Shown piece after piece: positions 4,782 to 43,231 of a stretch of 64,000 bases of DNA. The position numbers and the translations under genes are program-made. Source of the DNA: Altererythrobacter sp. C41. Lineage in GTDB: Bacteria; Pseudomonadota; Alphaproteobacteria; Sphingomonadales; Sphingomonadaceae. The first letter of the stretch is position 1, and each line of letters opens with the position of its first letter. The notes under the pieces are model-generated. The model was not told the origin of the DNA. It did no database searches and was given only the letters and a program-made list of their open reading frames with translations. The DNA lies in the NCBI RefSeq assembly GCF_016803135.1, contig NZ_JAEVFE010000002.1, forward strand, positions 186,001 through 250,000. Direction: 5' to 3'.

Positions 4782-5269
4782 TCCGTGCGGCCGCCCTCGC
4801 TGCGGCTCTGGCCGCGCTGTCCGGCTGCTCGCTGCAACCGATGTATGCGGGCGGCGGGAACGGCGCGGTGGCGCGCGGGCTCGCCGCGGTCGACGTGCCG
4901 CCGATCGAAGGGCGTGCGGGCTGGCTGGTGCGCAACGCGCTGCAGGATCGCCTGGGTGCGGCGGGTGAGGCCAATCCGCGCTACCGCCTCGACGTTCGGC
5001 TCGATGACCGACTCGAAGGGCTCGGCGTGCTGAGCGATGACACGATCGGGCGCGAACGCCGCACGCTGCGGGCGCGCTACCAGCTCGTCGACACCGCCGA
5101 CGGTTCGATCCTGCTCGATGCGACCGCCGGGTCGGACGCGGGGATCGACGTCGTCTCCAGCGAATATGCCACCATCGCCGCGGAGCAGACCGCGCTTGAG
5201 AATCTCGCGCAGGAGGTCGCCGACCGTATCGTGACGCAGCTCTCGCTCACGCTGCGCGAAGCGCGGTGA
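4778..5269 (+). CDS. lptE: LPS-assembly lipoprotein LptE
   Basis: Outer-membrane lipoprotein that plugs the LptD barrel and helps place lipopolysaccharide on the cell surface. The 163-residue product starts at a GTG inside the leuS stop. It has a short Ala-rich signal peptide, lipobox LSGC with Cys17, then SLQPMYAGG, the usual start of mature LptE. The body carries the family pattern of [25 protein letters not shown] and a C-terminal helix with [10 protein letters not shown]. It lies in the leuS-lptE-holA unit conserved in many proteobacteria, with GTGA overlaps on both sides. Confidence 0.93.
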
Positions 5270-6309
5270 AGGCGACCCAGCGCGATTTCGCCGCTGCCGC
5301 CCGGCGGGCGGCGCAGCAGTGCCGGGTGTTCTTCTTCTGCGGACCCGACGAAGCCGGCGCCGCGGCCGCGGCGGACAGGATCGTCGAACTGCTCGACGAT
5401 CCGGGCGAACGCATCGAGATGTCGGGCGCGGCCTTACGCAAGGATCCCGTCCTCCTCGGCGACGAGGCCCGCTCGGGCTCGCTGTTCGGCGATGCGCGCC
5501 ACATTTACGTTCGCACGAGCGGCGACGAGGCGCTCGACGCGATCGGCAATCTGCTGCTCGGCACGGGCGAGGCCTGCCCGGTGCTGATCGTCGCCACCTC
5601 CGCCACCGACAAGTCCCGCACCGCCAAGCTGCTCGAGAAGCGCGATGACGCGCTGGTGGCCATGTTCTGGCCGCCCGATCTCGCCTCCGTTACCGCCAGC
5701 GTGCGTGGGATGGCGGATGCGGCCGGCCTGCGTCTCAACGGCGATCTTGCCGAACGGATCGCGCGTGCCGCCGGGCTCGACGTGCGGCTCGCGCAGTCCG
5801 AGGTGGACAAGCTCGCGCTCTATCTCGACGCCTCGCCGGCGGCGCCCAGGAACGCCGATGCCGCCGCGCTCGACGCCATCGGTGCCTCGAGCGAGGAAGA
5901 CGGCTTCATGCCCCTAGTCAACGCAGTGCTCGCGGGCGAGACGCGCAAGATCCCGGCCGAGCTTCACCGGCTGCGTGAATTGTCGCTCAACCCGGTCGGC
6001 GTGCTGCTCGCGATCGAGCGGCGCGCGGCCCAGCTCGCGCAGATCGCGGCGAAGATCGGGCCGCGCGGCAACGTGGCGGCGGCGCTGGAGGCGGAGAAAC
6101 GCGCTCGCCGTATCTTCTGGAAGGACGAGCGCGACATTGCCGCCCAGCTCAAGCACTGGCGCGGGCGCGAGCTCGACCGGCTGGTGGCCAAGCTGGTGGC
6201 GCTCCACCGCGCGCTGCTCGCCAACAGCCAGTCGGCCGAACTGCTGCTGTCGCAGGGTCTTGCCGAAATCGCCCGCCGCGCCGCGGCCCGGCGGTGTCGA
6301 ATCCGATAG
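5266..6309 (+). CDS. holA: DNA polymerase III subunit delta
   Basis: Clamp-loader delta subunit, which opens the beta sliding clamp in the DnaX complex. The 347-residue product starts at a GTG overlapping the lptE stop (GTGA). Family features are the N-terminal VFFFCGPDEAGAAAAADRI, the segment SGSLFGDARHIYVR, the ELDKL-like QSEVDKLALYL, and the C-terminal helical collar including FWKDERDIAAQLKHW. Standard delta is 330-350 residues, so it looks complete. It converges on lptA with only nine bases between the stops. Confidence 0.93.
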   Translation: MKATQRDFAAAARRAAQQCRVFFFCGPDEAGAAAAADRIVELLDDPGERIEMSGAALRKDPVLLGDEARSGSLFGDARHIYVRTSGDEALDAIGNLLLGTGEACPVLIVATSATDKSRTAKLLEKRDDALVAMFWPPDLASVTASVRGMADAAGLRLNGDLAERIARAAGLDVRLAQSEVDKLALYLDASPAAPRNADAAALDAIGASSEEDGFMPLVNAVLAGETRKIPAELHRLRELSLNPVGVLLAIERRAAQLAQIAAKIGPRGNVAAALEAEKRARRIFWKDERDIAAQLKHWRGRELDRLVAKLVALHRALLANSQSAELLLSQGLAEIARRAAARRCRIR

Positions 6310-6318
6310 TGAGGCAGC

Positions 6319-6870
6319 CTAGTTTTCGGGAACCTGGAAGGTGCCCGATACGCGCCCGTCCGACGTGGTCGATGTGCCCGAGGCGCTTCCGTCGACGCTC
6401 GACACGCCGGTCCGCAGGTCGATCACCAGCCGCCCGCCGTTGAGCGTGTCGGTGCCGCGGCGCAGGCGGACGTTGCCGGCCATCGTGATGATCCGGCGGT
6501 TGAAGTCGTAGACCGCGACGTCGCCGGTCGCAGATTCGCTCCCGCGTGTCACCCGCACACCGCCCGTCGCGGTGATGCGCTGGATGCTCAGCGAACCTGC
6601 GTCGCTGTAGTTGACCAGCGTACGCGCGGCGCGCAGGCGCAGGTCGGCCTGGGTGATGTCGACGTTGCCCGACAGGACGACGCGGTTCTGCCGGTCCTGC
6701 AACTCGATCCGGTCGGCGGCGTAGTTGACCGGCGCGTTCGAATTGTGCCCGGCGATCGCCTGGGCGTTGATCTGCATGCCCGCGAACACGGCGAGGGCGC
6801 CGACGAAGCCGGCGATGGCCCAACGCAATGCGGTGGAAATGTGCGACGCGGTGGAAAGGTGCGATGTCAT
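6319..6870 (-). CDS. lptA: LPS transport periplasmic protein LptA
   Basis: OstA/LptA-type beta-jellyroll protein that forms the periplasmic bridge carrying LPS from LptC to LptD. The 183-residue product has a transmembrane or signal segment at about residues 15-38 ending in AQA, followed by repeated strands such as NYAADRIELQDRQNRVVLSG and ITATGGVRVTRGSESATGDV. It overlaps lptC by four bases (ATGA). The common downstream partners lptB and rpoN are absent; the next gene is the opposing holA. Confidence 0.92.
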   Translation of the reverse strand: MTSHLSTASHISTALRWAIAGFVGALAVFAGMQINAQAIAGHNSNAPVNYAADRIELQDRQNRVVLSGNVDITQADLRLRAARTLVNYSDAGSLSIQRITATGGVRVTRGSESATGDVAVYDFNRRIITMAGNVRLRRGTDTLNGGRLVIDLRTGVSSVDGSASGTSTTSDGRVSGTFQVPEN

Positions 6871-33109: not shown

Positions 33110-33271
33110 TTAGCGCTGCTGGTCGTCGCGGTCCTGCTGGCCGCGCTGACGGTTCTGCTGGCCGCCCTGCTGCTGGCGCTGGTTGCCACCCTGCTGCTCG
33201 CGCTGGCGTTCCTGCTGACCACCGCCCTGCTGGCGCTGATCGCCACCCTTGTTGTTGTTGTTCTGATTCAC
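33110..33271 (-). CDS. Q/R/G-rich disordered micro-protein
   Basis: A GTG at 33271 with a near-perfect ribosome binding site (GGAGAAGGAGA, six bases upstream) opens a 53-residue frame beginning VNQNNNNKGGDQRQQGGGQQ. It consists almost entirely of Gln, Arg, Gly, Asn and Asp, in irregular tandem units of GGNQRQQ type, and ends RDDQQR. It carries one KGG tripeptide, as in some stress-related low-complexity proteins. It could bind RNA or condense; no family is recognised. The excellent translation signal argues that it is real. Confidence 0.65.
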   Translation of the reverse strand: MNQNNNNKGGDQRQQGGGQQERQREQQGGNQRQQQGGQQNRQRGQQDRDDQQR

Positions 33272-33434
33272 GGTTCGTCTCCTTCTCCAACGGTCCGCTC
33301 GTCGCGGGACCTGTTCTATCAAGGCGCGGCCGGCCCGGCGGTTCCGTGCTTGCGCCCAAGCGATGATCGGGAGCGTCAAGTTGCTGAATTCCGGTAGAAA
33401 ATTCACTTATGTTTGATTCGTGGCGGAGGCGATG

Positions 33435-33760: not shown

Positions 33761-34453
33761 TCACTCGTCCTCGATCTCGCGCCGCATGACCTCATGCCCG
33801 GTCGGGTTCGGCCCTTCGATCTGGCGCGCGATATCGGCCGCCATGAGCTGCGCCACCGGATCCTCCGCGAGAGCGGCAAGGCGCGCCCGCTCGGCTTCGA
33901 GCAGGGCCGTCCGCTCACCCTCGGGCGCGGCGGCGACTTCGGCATAGAACCGGGTGAGCCGCAGCCACGGCGCATCCTCGACCAGCACGTCCTCCGCCCA
34001 GCGCGAGAACGGCCTGCCCGACGGCCGCCAGCCCTCGCCGTCCGGCGCGCGCTCGAGGAAGAACAGCGCCGTGGTGCCGGCAGGGAAAGCGCGGCGGATG
34101 CAGGCGCCGGACAGGCTCTCCGGATGCGGTTCGGCCAACTCATAGGGATTGCTGAGCGTCACGCTGCGTCGCTCGCCCGGATGCAGCAGCCCGACGCCGG
34201 TGATCCATACGGCGCTGTCGGGCATGGTTCCCTTGACTGCTAGCACCGGCGCGACCCGCAGCGAAGTATGCCAAGGCTTCACCCCGGCCGCCTCGTCGAC
34301 CACCCGCCCCAACAGGATCAACTCGGCATCCGCGGCAAGTTCAAGATTGGTGGGCGCGCGATAATCGGCCGTGACGGAGCACGCGACGGCGGGGGTGGCG
34401 AGGGTGAGGGTGAAAGTGAGGGCGGCGATGCCAAGAGGCAGGAAGAATCGCAT
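33761..34453 (-). CDS. Exported hypothetical protein
   Basis: The 230 residues from MRFFLPLGIAALTFTLTLATP show a classical signal peptide ending PAVA-C. The mature part begins with SVTADYRAPTNLELAADAEL and contains GLLHPGERRSVTLSNPYEL and ESLSGACIRRAFPAGTTALF, with two Cys residues that could pair. A C-terminal stretch of about 60 residues is alpha-helical and Glu/Arg-rich. I do not recognise a family. It is the last gene of normal base composition before the AT-richer pair. Confidence 0.65.
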   Translation of the reverse strand: MRFFLPLGIAALTFTLTLATPAVACSVTADYRAPTNLELAADAELILLGRVVDEAAGVKPWHTSLRVAPVLAVKGTMPDSAVWITGVGLLHPGERRSVTLSNPYELAEPHPESLSGACIRRAFPAGTTALFFLERAPDGEGWRPSGRPFSRWAEDVLVEDAPWLRLTRFYAEVAAAPEGERTALLEAERARLAALAEDPVAQLMAADIARQIEGPNPTGHEVMRREIEDE

Positions 34454-34464
34454 AGTTATTCCAG

Positions 34465-35061
34465 TCAGGAATTGGCTTCGGTCCATCTTTCGATATGTCG
34501 CATCAGCCGCGCCAAGCTATCCGCTCGATCAGAGGCACGTACCGCGTCCCAATGTGAGGTGACGAACTTCTGTAGAATGGCGTTATACTCGGGGCCTACC
34601 CTCGCTCCCGACCCTTCGCGTGGGATCAAGCCCTCTCGCAAACGGCGATGCCTTGAGTGAGCCGCCAAGGCCATCAGAGTTTGCTTTGGTTTTTCCACGC
34701 TTTCCGGTTGAGCCGGAATATGAACTTGCGAGATTCCGAGAAAATTTGCAAAGACTGCGCGATCAGCGAGTATCCAAGACTCGATCTCTCGAACGACGAC
34801 TCTGAACAATAAATTTTGGTAGTTATGCCTATTCGGAATTAGTTGATCGGCTAAGCTGACAGGACACTCGGCCGCATCCATATCTCTCAAGACCAGCCAA
34901 GGGCACTGCTGTGAAGCATTCGCGTACCCTGGAAGATTAGCATCCAATTTGGCATGCCCACCTTTGTTAAAAGATCCATAGACTTCATAGCCAAAATGAC
35001 TGAGAATTTTATGGGCTACGGAGAGATCAAGTTCGCTCTCGCCTGCAATCATGAATGCCAT
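34465..35061 (-). CDS. TOPRIM-like protein, putative nuclease partner of AAA ATPase
   Basis: The 198-residue product starts MAFMIAGESELDLSVAHKIL, with an acidic residue after strand 1 (Glu8) and RDMD later (Asp60, Asp62), the spacing of a TOPRIM fold. A conserved REIESWILAD follows at 91-100, and the C-terminus has GPEYNAILQKFV. It looks like the DUF4276/OLD-like group that accompanies ATPases. Its ATG overlaps the stop of the ATPase gene by one base (TAATG). Base composition is visibly AT-richer than flanking genes. A nuclease or primase-like role is an inference from fold and neighbour. Confidence 0.6.
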   Translation of the reverse strand: MAFMIAGESELDLSVAHKILSHFGYEVYGSFNKGGHAKLDANLPGYANASQQCPWLVLRDMDAAECPVSLADQLIPNRHNYQNLLFRVVVREIESWILADRAVFANFLGISQVHIPAQPESVEKPKQTLMALAAHSRHRRLREGLIPREGSGARVGPEYNAILQKFVTSHWDAVRASDRADSLARLMRHIERWTEANS

Positions 35062-36230
35062 TATTCTGCTATGGCATCGAACAATGAGAGCTGATTGCTA
35101 CGCGATGGACGGACGAGGGGGAATACCGCGTCCGCTACAGTAATGCCGCCCTCGAGGAGAAGCCGGACCTGTGACACGTTAACAGCGGTTTGGACTCTCG
35201 TCCCTTCATGAGCACTCGCGAGGAGATGTACCTCATCAAGGCCAACCCCGCGGTCAGCGAGAAGAGCCTCAGAATGAGTAGTGACCAAAATTTGCCTACC
35301 GCTTCGACGTGACACTCGGCTGAAAACGGAGGGAAGGTGCTGAACCACCGCCGGATGAAGCGACAACTCGGGTTCTTCTAAAAGCAGCGCGCCTCCAGAC
35401 TCCATCAGTGCCCATAGGAGGCCCATGAGTCGGAGAGTGCCGTCGCTAAACTGGTCCTCTGTCTGCCACGCTCCGGTGGCACGCCAGTGCTCATATCTGC
35501 CCTTAAGGTGCCAAAAGCCTTTTGTGTCTTGTTCCAGCGTAAGCTCGCTCAACTGCGGAACAGCAAACTTGATACTCTCTGCGATGCGCCGCAATCGCGA
35601 ATCCCGAGTTCTCTTGGGAGTATTCGCAACAGTCTCTAGAAAATCTCCACCAAACGGATCCTCCAAGCGACCGAACGATCTGTCTGGCTCCCTTACAATT
35701 TGTGGTACAATGTGTCGATAATTTATAGAAGAAAAAAAGGAAACAAGCTGGCGAAATTCTTTATTAGCACTAATTTGCTCTAAATGCGTTTGGCTTAAGA
35801 GGGCTTCGTCGTTCTTATCATCTTGGTCCGGACGATTCCGAATCAGGACGCCTGATCGCCATATCTTTTCTTCAATGATAAATGGATTGCGGTTGTTATC
35901 TTGCGAGAAGGCTAATCGGTAGCGCCAAATTTCTGGACTGCCGTCAGTTCCAATCGCCACTTCAATTACAACGTCACTCTTCTTGCGCGAGAAGAGGCTT
36001 CTTATGGCGGATACCCCCCCCCGGCTCTCGACGGCCTCTCGGAATCCTCCGCCCGTGCGAGCCAAATCCCTTAGGAATCGGAATATATCTAGGATGTTTG
36101 ACTTGCCTGCAGCGTTTGCTCCCACAAAGAATGCTCTTCTCTGAAGCGAGATCGTGAAATCGCTAAAGTTCTTCCAGCGCGCGGCATGAAGCTGCGTGAA
36201 GTATAAGTTGGTGTGAGGGGTATCAGCCAT
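35061..36230 (-). CDS. AAA_21/SMC-like ATPase, defence-type candidate
   Basis: The 389-residue ATPase starts MADTPHTNLYFTQLHAARWK, with Walker A GANAAGKS at 37-44, an ABC-type signature region FSDGTLRLMGLLWA at 261-274, Walker B LLLEEPELSLHP at 283-294 and the switch TTHSEALLA at 317-325. This is the RecF/OLD-type ATPase layout. Its ATG overlaps the nrdB stop (TGATG), so translation is coupled to nrdB. The AT-rich composition contrasts with nrdB. The adjacent TOPRIM-like gene suggests an ATPase/nuclease pair. Confidence 0.75.
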   Translation of the reverse strand: MADTPHTNLYFTQLHAARWKNFSDFTISLQRRAFFVGANAAGKSNILDIFRFLRDLARTGGGFREAVESRGGVSAIRSLFSRKKSDVVIEVAIGTDGSPEIWRYRLAFSQDNNRNPFIIEEKIWRSGVLIRNRPDQDDKNDEALLSQTHLEQISANKEFRQLVSFFSSINYRHIVPQIVREPDRSFGRLEDPFGGDFLETVANTPKRTRDSRLRRIAESIKFAVPQLSELTLEQDTKGFWHLKGRYEHWRATGAWQTEDQFSDGTLRLMGLLWALMESGGALLLEEPELSLHPAVVQHLPSVFSRVSRRSGRQILVTTHSEALLADRGVGLDEVHLLASAHEGTRVQTAVNVSQVRLLLEGGITVADAVFPLVRPSRSNQLSLFDAIAE

Positions 36231-37297
36231 CACTCCGCCGCCACGCTCCCGCTCTCGCCGCCGTCGCCGAACAGCCCCGGCCCCTCGTCGCCGAGGTCGT
36301 TCGCTTCCTCGCCCTTCTTGGCCTTCTGGCGCTTGTCGAAGCTCGACCAGACGTCCTGCCAGTTGCCCTTGGTCGCGCCCTTCGAATACTCGGTCGCGCG
36401 GGTTTCGAAGAAGTTGGCGTGCTCCACGCCGTTGAGCAGCGGGGCGAGCCAGGGGAGGGGGTGGTCCTCGACCATGTAGATCGCGGGCAGGCCGAGCTGG
36501 CCCAGGCGCCAGTCGGCGATGTAGCGGATGTAGTGCTTGATCTCCTTCGCCGTCATCCCCGGGACCGGGCCCTGCTCGAACGCGAGGTCGATGAAGGCAT
36601 CCTCCAGCCGCACCGTCTTCTGGCACATGTCCATGATGTCTTCCTTGACCGCCTTGGTCAGGCAGTCGCGCTCCTGCACGAAAGCGTGGAACAGGCGGGT
36701 GATGCCTTCGCAGTGCAGGCTCTCGTCGCGGACCGACCAGCTCACGATCTGACCCATGCCCTTCATCTTGTTGAAGCGCGGGAAGTTCATCAGCATGGCG
36801 AAGCTGGCGAAGAGCTGCAGCCCCTCGGTGAAGCCGCCGAACATCGCCAGCGTGCGGGCGATGTCCTCGTCGCTGTCGACGCCGAACTGCTGCAGGTAGT
36901 CGTGCTTGGCCTTCATCTCCTCGTACTCGAGGAACATGCCGTATTCGCTTTCCGGCATGCCGATCGTGTCGAGCAGGTGCGAATAGGCGGCGATGTGCAC
37001 CGTCTCCATGTTGGAGAAGGCGGCGAGCATCATCTTGATCTCGGTCGGCTTGAACACGCGGCCGTATTTCTCGTGGTAGCAGTCCTGCACCTCGACGTCG
37101 GCCTGGGTGAAGAAGCGGAAGATCTGGGTGAGCAGGTTGCGCTCGTGGTCGGAGAGCTTCTGCGCCCAGTCGCGGCAGTCCTCGCCCAGCGGCACTTCCT
37201 CGGGCATCCAGTGGATCTGCTGCTGGCGCTTCCAGAAGTCGTAGGCCCACGGATATTCGAAGGGTTTGTAGGTCTTGCGGGCTTCGAGAAGGGACAT
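36230..37297 (-). CDS. nrdB: Ribonucleotide reductase class Ia, beta subunit
   Basis: Small subunit of class Ia ribonucleotide reductase, which holds the diiron-tyrosyl radical cofactor for making deoxynucleotides. The 355 residues from MSLLEARKTYKPFEYPWAYD include the iron ligands Glu98 and His101 in NMETVH and the radical Tyr105. The C-terminal tail is longer than usual and Gly/Glu-rich. The stop TGA overlaps the next ATG by one base. The start is 24 bases downstream of an NrdR-like box. Its partner nrdA is 2.5 kb away instead of adjacent. Confidence 0.95.
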   Translation of the reverse strand: MSLLEARKTYKPFEYPWAYDFWKRQQQIHWMPEEVPLGEDCRDWAQKLSDHERNLLTQIFRFFTQADVEVQDCYHEKYGRVFKPTEIKMMLAAFSNMETVHIAAYSHLLDTIGMPESEYGMFLEYEEMKAKHDYLQQFGVDSDEDIARTLAMFGGFTEGLQLFASFAMLMNFPRFNKMKGMGQIVSWSVRDESLHCEGITRLFHAFVQERDCLTKAVKEDIMDMCQKTVRLEDAFIDLAFEQGPVPGMTAKEIKHYIRYIADWRLGQLGLPAIYMVEDHPLPWLAPLLNGVEHANFFETRATEYSKGATKGNWQDVWSSFDKRQKAKKGEEANDLGDEGPGLFGDGGESGSVAAE

Positions 37298-37320: not shown

Positions 37321-37336
37321 CCCCAATATATAGCGT
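37321..37336. promoter_or_regulatory. NrdR-like box upstream of nrdB
   Basis: Read on the minus strand, ACGCTATATATTGGGG matches the NrdR box ACACwATATATwGTGT in about 13 of 16 positions. It lies 24 bases before the nrdB start, overlapping the likely -10 region (TATATA). No equally good second box is visible at 16 or 31-32 bases away. Confidence 0.6.
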
Positions 37337-38616: not shown

Positions 38617-39405
38617 TCAGGAGAGCGGCATTCTGGATTCGCCCCAAGCGTGACGAAGAATAAAGACAGCCGCCATATCGGGTAAAATCTTCCATCGGCT
38701 GCGGGCAGCCAACATCACGCTTTGCGGCGCTGCTCTATCTTCATAATTGCTCGAGAAAAGTTCTCGAAATTGTCTTCGACCAATCTGATCCGCAACTTGG
38801 ATATCCTTATACTGGTGGCATGCGAAATATCGCTTCCCCGACTCGCAGCCGCACCATTCATCCGGTTTGAACTCTTGGCGACGATAATAGGCACACGCTC
38901 CGACCTGCGGGCCGGGCCAAAGATCGAGATGCGTTCTGTGCCAGCTCTTGATGATCCAGAGGGAATAATGATCGAGTAGTGCTGTGAGACCATCCTTAGG
39001 CTCCCATGCACCGCTCTCTTTAGTAAACGCGCAAACCGAGGCATCCGGGAAATTCGTATGCTTGAGCGGAAACAACTCTGCTTGGTTTCCAATGGCCTCA
39101 AACGCCCATGTACGGGGCGATATTGTCTCTTCAAACGGTAATGCCACCAGAAGGTGTACTTGTGGGCCGCCTCGACCTAGCGGTCGGGTTTTTACGGCGA
39201 CCCACAAGCCATTTGGATCTTCGAAAGCTAGCGCTTCGTAATGGTGTGCCAGAATTCGAAACTGATCTCCGAAAGCGGTCTCGTGGGCAACGGAGCGGAG
39301 GGACTCGGCTTGACGGGCCGGCCCTGGCCGTGTCCGTGCTCGTTGTCCTTTCCGCGGTCCGGCTTCGGATCGGTGCCCGGCGTATGATTGGGAGGCATCC
39401 TTCAC
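38617..39405 (-). CDS. E2/UBC-like domain protein with C-terminal SEC-C zinc motif
   Basis: Not a named gene to me. The core RILAHHYEALAFEDPNGLWV leads to GPQVHLLVALPFEE and then KHTNFPDASVCAFTKESGAW, the order seen around the active-site Cys of E2 ubiquitin-conjugating enzymes (His, Asn, Asp, then Cys). The segment DHYSLWIIKSWHRTHLDLWP and CGCESGKRYFACH, a SEC-C-type zinc motif, follow. Prokaryotic E2-like proteins are known in CBASS-type and ubiquitin-like modules; no E1, JAB peptidase, ubiquitin-like protein or CD-NTase is in the window. The GTG start at 39405 is a choice; the frame is open to 39570. Composition is AT-richer than the flanks. Confidence 0.55.
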   Translation of the reverse strand: MKDASQSYAGHRSEAGPRKGQRARTRPGPARQAESLRSVAHETAFGDQFRILAHHYEALAFEDPNGLWVAVKTRPLGRGGPQVHLLVALPFEETISPRTWAFEAIGNQAELFPLKHTNFPDASVCAFTKESGAWEPKDGLTALLDHYSLWIIKSWHRTHLDLWPGPQVGACAYYRRQEFKPDEWCGCESGKRYFACHQYKDIQVADQIGRRQFRELFSSNYEDRAAPQSVMLAARSRWKILPDMAAVFILRHAWGESRMPLS

Positions 39406-39526
39406 TTTACCTTTCTGGCCATTGTCTCGGCCGACGAAGCCACCGTCAAAGACGAGCGGTTGCCGCTCAGCATCGATATCGATGCCAAGGTCGCGCAAAT
39501 GATTGAAAGCACTCTGGGAAAATTTA

Positions 39527-39697
39527 GTTTTTCCACAGGCTTTGCCCATCTTGCGCACGGCTCCATCCACCCCGCTTGGGGTGGCTTTCGGTTGACCCGA
39601 ACATCAGCGCGTGCGAGGCAAAGAGTGCACCGTGAGCCTCGAACGCACCAACGTTCAGCTTACGAGGGGGCCAGCCATCGGCTGGTCCCCATTTTTC
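39527..39697 (+). ncRNA. Putative small RNA with strong terminator
   Basis: On the plus strand, four hairpins follow one another: CCACCCC-GCTT-GGGGTGG at 39567-39584, TTCGG-TTGAC-CCGAA at 39587-39601, GCGTGCGAGGC/GCCTCGAACGC (39609-39619 with 39636-39646, one mismatch), and an 11-bp stem at 39666-39690 followed by ATTTTT. No plus-strand gene precedes this terminator. A TTGAAA at about 39503 could be the -35. The transcript would be near 165 nucleotides. I do not recognise an Rfam family. Its left end overlaps the N-terminal extension of the E2-like frame. Confidence 0.42.
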
Positions 39698-42337: not shown

Positions 42338-43231
42338 TCATGCCGCGGCGGCCATGCGGGTATGTCCGGCGATGGCGTCTGCGATCGGCTCGACCAGTTC
42401 GAGCGGCAGGTCGTGGCCCATGCCGGGGAAGCTCCGCAGCGTCGCACCGGCGATCGATGCCGCGGTGTCCCGCCCGCCCGGGAAGGGGACCAGCGGATCG
42501 TCCTCCCCGTGTATCACCAGGGTCGGGGCGGTCACGCCTTTGAGTCGCGCGCGCCGGTCGCCATCGGCGAGGATTGCCGCGAGCTGCCGCGACAGCCCCT
42601 CGGGATAATAGCTGCGCCGCACGCCGGCGGTGACATTCGCGCGCAGCCGCGCCTCGTCGGCCGGGTAGCCGGGGCTGCCGATCGTGCGTGCGATCGTCAT
42701 ACCGTGCGCGACCAGCACTTCCTCGTCGCCCGACACGGGGCGCTTGGTCAGGACCTCGATCGCCTGCTTCTGCGCGGACGGCAGACGGCGGTTGCCGGTG
42801 GTCGACATGATCGAGGTGAGCGAGAGCACGCGTTCGGGATGGGTGAAGGCGATGTGCTGCGCGATCATCCCGCCCATGCTCGCGCCGACCACGTGCGCCT
42901 TGCCGATCCCGAGCGCATCGAGCAGCCCGACGCCGTCCGCCGCCATGTCGGCCAGCGTATAGGGCACGCGCGGGGTCAGGCCGAGGCGGCCGAGCAGCAT
43001 GAGCTTGAGAATACCGGGCGCCTTCACCCCGTGGAACTTGTGGCTGAGACCGATGTCGCGGTTGTCGTAGCGGATCACCCGGAAACCCCGCGCCACCAGA
43101 GCCTCGACCAGCTCCATCGGCCACAAGGTCAATTGCGCGCCGAGCCCCATGACCAGCAGCACCGGCGGATCGCCTGGGTTGCCGTAATCCTCGTATTCCA
43201 GCGTGATGCCGTTGGCGGTGATCTGTGTCAT
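42338..43231 (-). CDS. Alpha/beta hydrolase
   Basis: The 297-residue hydrolase starts MTQITANGITLEYEDYGNPG, with an oxyanion-loop VLLVMGLGAQLTLWP, the nucleophile elbow GASMGG, an acid in GEDDPLVP and the catalytic His in FPGMGHDL. The fold is the epoxide-hydrolase/esterase type; the substrate is unknown. It lies upstream of nrdA in the same direction and downstream of nadB across a palindromic repeat. Confidence 0.85.
   Translation of the reverse strand: MTQITANGITLEYEDYGNPGDPPVLLVMGLGAQLTLWPMELVEALVARGFRVIRYDNRDIGLSHKFHGVKAPGILKLMLLGRLGLTPRVPYTLADMAADGVGLLDALGIGKAHVVGASMGGMIAQHIAFTHPERVLSLTSIMSTTGNRRLPSAQKQAIEVLTKRPVSGDEEVLVAHGMTIARTIGSPGYPADEARLRANVTAGVRRSYYPEGLSRQLAAILADGDRRARLKGVTAPTLVIHGEDDPLVPFPGGRDTAASIAGATLRSFPGMGHDLPLELVEPIADAIAGHTRMAAAA

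Follow-up and report, generated by a model that had tools for sequence, protein, structure and literature searches.

The closest described counterparts of the gene pair studied here are systems that combine an ATPase with a TOPRIM-type protein. In PARIS the two parts, AriA and AriB, are encoded by separate genes, and the accessible part of PMC12409363 proposes AriB to be a two-metal tRNA nuclease. In Gabija both parts are fused in GajA, which is accompanied by the helicase GajB. TOPRIM_OLD/RloB toxins are neutralised by their ATPase partner according to the accessible part of PMC10440598, which provides a model for the pair. HEC-01, a PADLOC 'Hma-embedded candidate', goes back to the preprint of Payne et al. 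2024, as cited in PMC12988326, excerpts of which report antiviral activity for several HECs and name HEC-06; a description of the HEC-01 mechanism was not met in the accessible parts of the literature searched. The genomic setting has counterparts in the core defence hotspots of P. aeruginosa, with medians of 26 and 6 kb (PMC10250203, in excerpt), and in the integration hotspots of E. coli, which are sites of phages and other mobile elements and lie in tRNA loci in 18 of 41 cases (PMC10121019, in excerpt). For the DNA analysed here, we consider it rather probable that a two-gene HEC-01 system occupies the 3′ end of nrdB, a site that acts throughout the family as a swappable defence slot.

The gene pair behind nrdB

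The window, a stretch of 64,000 nucleotides from Altererythrobacter sp. C41, contains on its minus strand the gene nrdB (36230..37297), encoding the small subunit of class I ribonucleotide reductase as judged from annotated relatives, which forms the constant left anchor of the slot. It is followed by the AT-rich cargo of the window genome (34465..36230, minus), delimited by base composition and sister loci. The cargo consists of a gene for a 389-residue AAA_21/Rad50-type ATPase (HEC-01A; 35061..36230, minus) and a gene for a DUF4276-like, TOPRIM-like putative nuclease of 198 residues (HEC-01B; 34465..35061, minus). The far side of the slot is occupied by a native gene with a signal-peptide-like start (33761..34453, minus), which is present in five of six congener loci. 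As the preliminary description had proposed, the pair forms a two-gene unit with overlapping joints: the nrdB stop and the ATPase start have one base in common (TGATG), leaving no gap between the genes, and the ATPase stop and the start of the small protein likewise share one base (TAATG). The string TGATG also follows nrdB in two congeners (L040 and L041), whose first open reading frame starts elsewhere than at that ATG, and occurs at the nrdB end in 6 of 101 family loci, the window counted. Because it is present behind nrdB in other loci, the overlap may be older than the insertion of the pair.

The pair is AT-richer than its surroundings, as had been remarked for nrdB and the gene at 33761: GC3 is 0.53 (ATPase) and 0.51 (small protein), versus 0.95 (nrdB), 0.92 (nrdA) and 0.84 (the 33761 gene). 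In a profile with 1-kb steps the GC minimum of the whole window, 0.51, falls at the two genes. No Rfam family was matched between 33000 and 40500. Elsewhere, an ORF at 33110-33406 (minus) encodes a low-complexity protein with many Gln, Arg and Gly residues, and a 94-nt tRNA-Gly call by ARAGORN (42760-42853, plus), lying antisense inside an alpha/beta hydrolase-like ORF (42338-43231, minus), is probably false.

The ATPase, present in a single copy in the window genome, matches the PADLOC HEC-01A model over residues 10-383 of 389 (E-value 3.5e-156) and the expected Pfam domain AAA_21 (1.6e-33), with weaker PADLOC matches to AriA (1.1e-30) and AbiLi (1.8e-24). The nearest folds to the predicted model (pLDDT 91.9) are one chain of the PtuA complex from retron Ec78 (8.1e-15) and Rad50 (1.3e-13). 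Over short stretches, a profile built from 48 sequences matches GajA (1.8e-13), AriA (1.2e-5) and a nuclease of the OLD family. The previously noticed motifs GANAAGKS, LLLEEPELSLHP and TTHS are present and conserved, with G37, N39, A40, G42-N45, L282-L291 and T318-S320 invariant in seven HEC-01A sequences.

The small protein matches the HEC-01B model over residues 3-195 of 198 (3.5e-72), and all of its 12 PADLOC matches at E 1 are HEC-01 models. An assignment to DUF4276 is weak and below cut-off for the single sequence (0.0015), and gains from the family, since all 73 rows of the small-protein alignment match DUF4276 at E≤0.1, the best at 3e-9. The predicted model (pLDDT 96.3) shows strands alternating with helices. 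In TOPRIM domains the characteristic acids are a Glu after strand 1 and a DxD motif after strand 3. The model fits this placement, with E8 following strand 1 (residues 2-7) and D60-x-D62 following strand 3 (residues 55-60). The acids E8 and D60-M-D62, pointed out earlier, are indeed conserved: E8, D60 and D62 do not vary among 11 small-protein sequences whose identity falls as low as 16%, and in the 73 rows E8, D60, C66, R87, E92, E94 and W96 are invariant, with D62 at 90% or more.

A Foldseek search of the PDB with this model gave no match at E≤0.001 and no TOPRIM name among the top 50; the best matches, from E 0.023 upward, are mostly receiver domains. The best viral fold match is a RloB-like protein (E 0.039, prob 0.94; not significant), and the OLD-like_TOPRIM profile is matched weakly (0.076) by one of the 73 rows. 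The suggestion that the small protein has a TOPRIM fold is therefore borne out for the placement of the acids and not for a significant match to a known TOPRIM structure. We regard the protein as TOPRIM-like rather than as a proven TOPRIM protein, on the strength of E8 and D60/D62 in a confidently predicted model.

Both window proteins match the HEC-01 models end to end and adjoin each other; by these models, the pair belongs to the candidate family HEC-01. It differs from the naming context in lying outside any Hma operon, with nrdB and the native gene as neighbours. PARIS is similar in having separate ATPase and TOPRIM-type genes and in the resemblance of AriA to the window ATPase noted above. 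It differs in that no AriB model is found among the matches of the small protein at E 1 and in ATPase length (464 residues versus 389 in the window). AbiL and RloA-RloB are approached by the AbiLi match of the ATPase and the RloB-like viral fold match of the small protein, but the latter has no AbiLii/RloB sequence match at E 1. The N-terminus of the ATPase resembles GajA of the Gabija/OLD group, but in the window the ATPase and TOPRIM-like parts are on separate genes, and the pair is flanked by nrdB and a gene for a short secreted-like protein, with no helicase gene as a counterpart of GajB. By the tests run, the pair is a member of neither PARIS nor Gabija, and by analogy it would work like both.

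Distribution of the pair

Among 197 related genomes the small protein was found in the window genome alone, from which it follows that the pair was acquired. The HEC-01B model matches 6 of 385 genomes of the class (E 1e-5) and 6 of 398 genomes of the phylum (E 1e-15), the window genome counted in both. One homologue (L035:1495-2037, minus), in which the N-terminal acid is unaligned and which has no ATPase ORF alongside in its 3.5-kb locus, is maybe a remnant. A scan of named genomes gave 330 relatives of the small protein, of which the best 80 (34-43% identity) were analysed; these come from Acidobacteria, Cyanobacteria, Bacteroidetes, Nitrospirae, archaea and others. In 77 of the best 80 an ATPase gene lies directly upstream at a distance of ≤60 nt, mostly overlapping or within 10 nt, where the start codon nearest to the ATPase stop was chosen and small gaps are thereby favoured. 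Of the other three, one has the ATPase but yielded no start, and in two the contig begins only 62 and 280 nt ahead of the match. The pair is spread widely but sparsely, and is tightly packed.

The 95 genes flanking these homologues match 125 PADLOC models at 1e-10, the commonest of which (HmaA, type III methyltransferase and others) are found in three genes each. With HmaA in 3 of the 95, the Hma link is the origin of the name and not a functional criterion. Carriage by a phage or plasmid was set aside: in phages and plasmids the small protein has no match at 1e-5, the ATPase has none in phages at 1e-20, and viral contigs gave no relative.

nrdB is present in none of the best 80 loci (flanks up to 6 kb, shorter at contig ends). 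On these grounds functional coupling to nrdB has been set aside as the main explanation, and we conclude that the pair was acquired without an intrinsic tie to that gene. The pair was suspected from the outset to be foreign, and this agrees with its non-native codon usage, seen in GC3, and with its presence in one of 197 relatives, by which it is not universal. The accompanying idea of a specific tie to a nucleotide-pool gene is not supported by the homologous loci or by the many unrelated cargos that the slot takes. A partnership with ribonucleotide reductase would have the pair sense or act on dNTP pools in infected cells and would give its position in the nrdB operon a function. Such a partnership could draw on the overlap of the ATPase start with the nrdB stop and on the NrdR-box-like site before nrdB described below. 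It could also draw on the escape of phage nrdA/nrdB mutants from DRT9 (PMC12483538, in excerpt) and the inhibition of GajA by NTPs and dNTPs (PMC10440598, in excerpt). The lack of nrdB from the flanks covered in the best 80 loci, the different genes or none behind nrdB in the 100 other family loci, and the occurrence of TGATG where the cargo leaves it unused make such a partnership very improbable.

The preliminary description also took the pair for an anti-phage ATPase/TOPRIM system. The HEC-01A and HEC-01B matches agree with this, and the anti-phage role itself is assigned by resemblance only. The pair could instead be a host-cell toxin-antitoxin or repair module, since AAA and TOPRIM_OLD/RloB proteins act as antitoxin and toxin in assays (PMC10440598, accessible part) and an archaeal ATPase of the OLD family acts in the cell cycle (PMC12796447, accessible part). 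The presence of the small protein in one of 197 relatives indicates that it is not essential, however; its slot is otherwise rich in defence genes, some genes flanking its homologues match PADLOC models, and in the same excerpt of PMC10440598 the authors themselves suspect phage defence. We consider a host module unlikely.

The position behind nrdB in the family

The suggested comparison with sister strains shows that in six congeners the nrdB locus lacks the pair and either carries different cargo or is nearly empty: a small membrane protein (G001), a 283-residue protein (G003), a 488-residue P-loop protein (G004), a gene pair that we take to be DUF4160/DUF2442-like (G002), a shortened membrane protein of the G001 type plus a DUF4160-like pair (G006), or 46 nt followed by the likely next start (G005). 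Over the final 100 nt of nrdB, five congeners show 84-95% identity with the window (L040 carries an indel there and has an ungapped value of 55), and of the 20 nt past the stop 2-8 agree; nrdB identity stops at the stop codon.

The survey was extended to 101 nrdB loci (100 and the window) from 54 genera of one Sphingomonadales family, in which 179 of 189 genomes gave a match; the loci are not a random sample and are mostly higher-identity nrdB matches, so that closer relatives are favoured. With AT-rich defined as GC <0.56 in 500 nt, the first 500 nt behind nrdB are AT-rich in 73 of the 101 loci, versus 7% for the 500 nt just before the stop and 3% (of 100) for +2000 to +2500. Behind nrdA the figure is 22% of 89, and behind the control genes 9 of 89 (M13 peptidase 4/30, NadB 2/29, UppP 3/30). 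A GC fall >0.06 across the stop (500 nt before versus after) occurs at nrdB in 65 of 101 loci and at M13 peptidase, NadB and UppP in 1/30, 2/29 and 9/30, respectively, the last value making UppP a less clean control. In the 76 loci measured, the median AT-rich block is 1450 nt long. Its first gene is on the strand of nrdB in 64 of 75 loci (p 3e-10), and 49 of these 64 start ≤100 nt from the nrdB stop and 6 overlap it, as called by a home-made ORF picker that favours early starts. Clustering of the 150 AT-rich ORFs picked within the first 1600 nt gives 111 groups, of which 90 have a single member. A cargo gene has a counterpart in a locus of its own genus in 10 of 114 comparisons; for genes lying 2.3-5.5 kb downstream the figure is 48 of 111. 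In other families of the order (19 loci) a GC drop is seen in 21% for the first 500 nt and 0% for the next 500, compared with 65% and 59% within the family, a weak test because background GC is lower in the other families.

Taking one first cargo gene per AT-rich slot with an ORF ≥100 aa and leaving out the window, 74 genes were compared with PADLOC at 1e-10. They match 172 models (a count of models, not genes), while 72 control genes from the same loci give one model in one gene. The kinds of cargo include restriction-modification, TIR, SIR2, NACHT, OLD, DarT and Abi. Among the Pfam matches listed at 1e-5 (25 of 33 families), C5 methyltransferase occurs five times, MT-A70 four times, AAA_15, AAA_21 and TIR_2 three times each, GmrSD and HipA_2 twice each, and Abi_alpha, Abi_C, FRG, DUF4062, DarT, SocA_Panacea, SIR2_2 and ThsB_TIR once each, alongside ordinary families such as aldo-keto reductase, DUF1294 and DUF559. 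A random draw of 30 of the 74 includes NACHT, OLD-like ATPases, GmrSD, ThsB_TIR, TIR, SIR2 and C5 methylases; Pfam leaves 11 of the 30 without a match at 0.001, and DsrE, DUF1294 and DUF559 seem to be ordinary cargo. An MT-A70 pair stands right behind nrdB in five genera (L046, L054, L072, L099 and L129), with an enzyme 76-84% identical across genera and a neighbour at 24-76%, in both orientations; it looks like a restriction-modification pair with a fast-changing partner.

The position right behind the nrdB stop holds differing AT-rich, often defence-like cargo in most relatives examined, and for this reason the site as such may act as an exchangeable socket into which immunity genes fit. One could object that it is an ordinary gene boundary, open to any acquired gene, and that drift and annotation choices mislead. 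The AT-rich nrdA 3′ ends, the 9/30 for UppP by the GC-fall measure, the ordinary part of the cargo and a choice of loci favouring closer relatives all lend themselves to this objection. Set against it are the 73 of 101 loci behind nrdB versus 9 of 89 behind three control genes, the defence models found in the cargo and hardly in the control genes, and the strand bias of 64 in 75. We hold an ordinary boundary to be quite unlikely.

The nrdA 3′ end may also receive insertions, to a lesser degree. A second AT-rich gene (38617-39570, minus; GC 0.55, GC3 0.53) separates nrdA from a small lipoprotein-like gene; it is absent from the six congener loci, has no Pfam or NCBIfam match, and carries a SEC-C-like motif. 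Two further nrdB observations concern gene copies. In one genome (L051, G013) contig C1 carries two nrdB-like matches, at 382590-383630 (+) and 393876-394856 (-), about 10 kb apart in opposite orientation, the second gene being 81% identical to the window nrdB. The nearest named nrdB in the plasmid collection (92%) is that of Qipengyuania citrea (Erythrobacteraceae); in L244 (NZ_CP098495.1, locus 5001-6600) it lies on a 270-kb plasmid record, and a convergent DUF1643 gene starts 2 nt past its stop.

As in a defence hotspot, the same core gene stands beside varied defence-like cargo, enriched over control sites, and we read the slot as a defence hotspot that takes single cassettes and lies where an operon ends. 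It shares with the hotspots of P. aeruginosa and E. coli the flanking of interchangeable defence genes by conserved core genes. It differs from them in its median of 1450 nt, its content of mostly one gene or pair, its place behind a protein gene and the lack of an integrase motif in the search made. nrdA and nrdB are not mentioned in the main texts of PMC10121019 and PMC10250203, and no report of a defence slot at nrdB was found in the literature searched. What is new here is the place: a short slot for single cassettes that lies, across a family, behind the last gene of a protein operon.

Proposed mechanism and meaning

The cargo could have been brought in by a specific mobile element, an integrase or transposon targeting the nrdB end in the manner of tRNA genes, as the sharp end of identity at the nrdB stop within the genus would fit. 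In 21 loci (the window and L040-L059) exact downstream copies of the nrdB end reach 8-12 nt at most and do not exceed the controls in length, and on this basis site-specific integration duplicating the nrdB end was rejected. A tyrosine-recombinase motif (an ad hoc pattern, with no positive control) was found in 0 of 101 loci within 5 kb behind nrdB, and the 74 cargo genes include no recombinase or transposase among the Pfam matches listed (25 of 33 families). Such an element is therefore a rather improbable carrier. In the preferred reading, that of a HEC-01 system in a swappable slot, cargo would be exchanged by homologous recombination anchored in the conserved end of nrdB; the divergence of nrdB at four-fold sites is about that of nrdA and gives no clear signal of recombination.

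Lying just behind nrdB in reading direction, the slot cargo is probably co-transcribed with it; it would be read off the nrdB transcript, and in the window translational coupling may contribute. A NrdR-box-like palindrome (37321..37336, unstranded), 24-39 nt upstream of nrdB, is the sole site of the window with ≤3 mismatches to the NrdR-box consensus, 0.07 being expected, and the window genome has an nrdR gene; given both, expression of the pair together with ribonucleotide reductase is possible. Across the family the motif is modestly enriched, with ≤5 mismatches in 27 of 100 loci versus 5 of 100 shuffles.

Judged from PARIS, AbiL and OLD, the role of infection sensor and scaffold may fall to the ABC-type ATPase, which would keep the TOPRIM-like metal nuclease inactive until a phage trigger frees it. 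E8, D60, D62, E92 and E94 would be the metal ligands of the small protein. The freed nuclease would cut nucleic acid, for which tRNA is the best guess by comparison with AriB, and the infection would thereby abort.

A wider and more tentative proposal, which we put forward as possible and somewhat doubtful, is that the nrdB stop is a privileged docking point for interchangeable immune cassettes throughout the family. The cassettes would be brought in by recombination anchored in the nrdB end, with no integrase of their own, and wired into the ribonucleotide reductase transcript, so that defence would keep pace with the making of DNA precursors (NrdR control, replication stress, dNTP demand of phages). 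If this is true, undescribed defence systems should be plentiful among the unnamed AT-rich cargo genes.

The analysis places HEC-01 beside the two-gene ATPase/TOPRIM systems and names residues for mutation. It also makes testable whether sharing the ribonucleotide reductase transcript gives immune genes a useful timing. If the slot is real, asking what follows nrdB would list known and unknown defence genes in a large environmental family, whose immunity genes would be exchangeable cassette by cassette at the tail of an essential operon and not on large islands.
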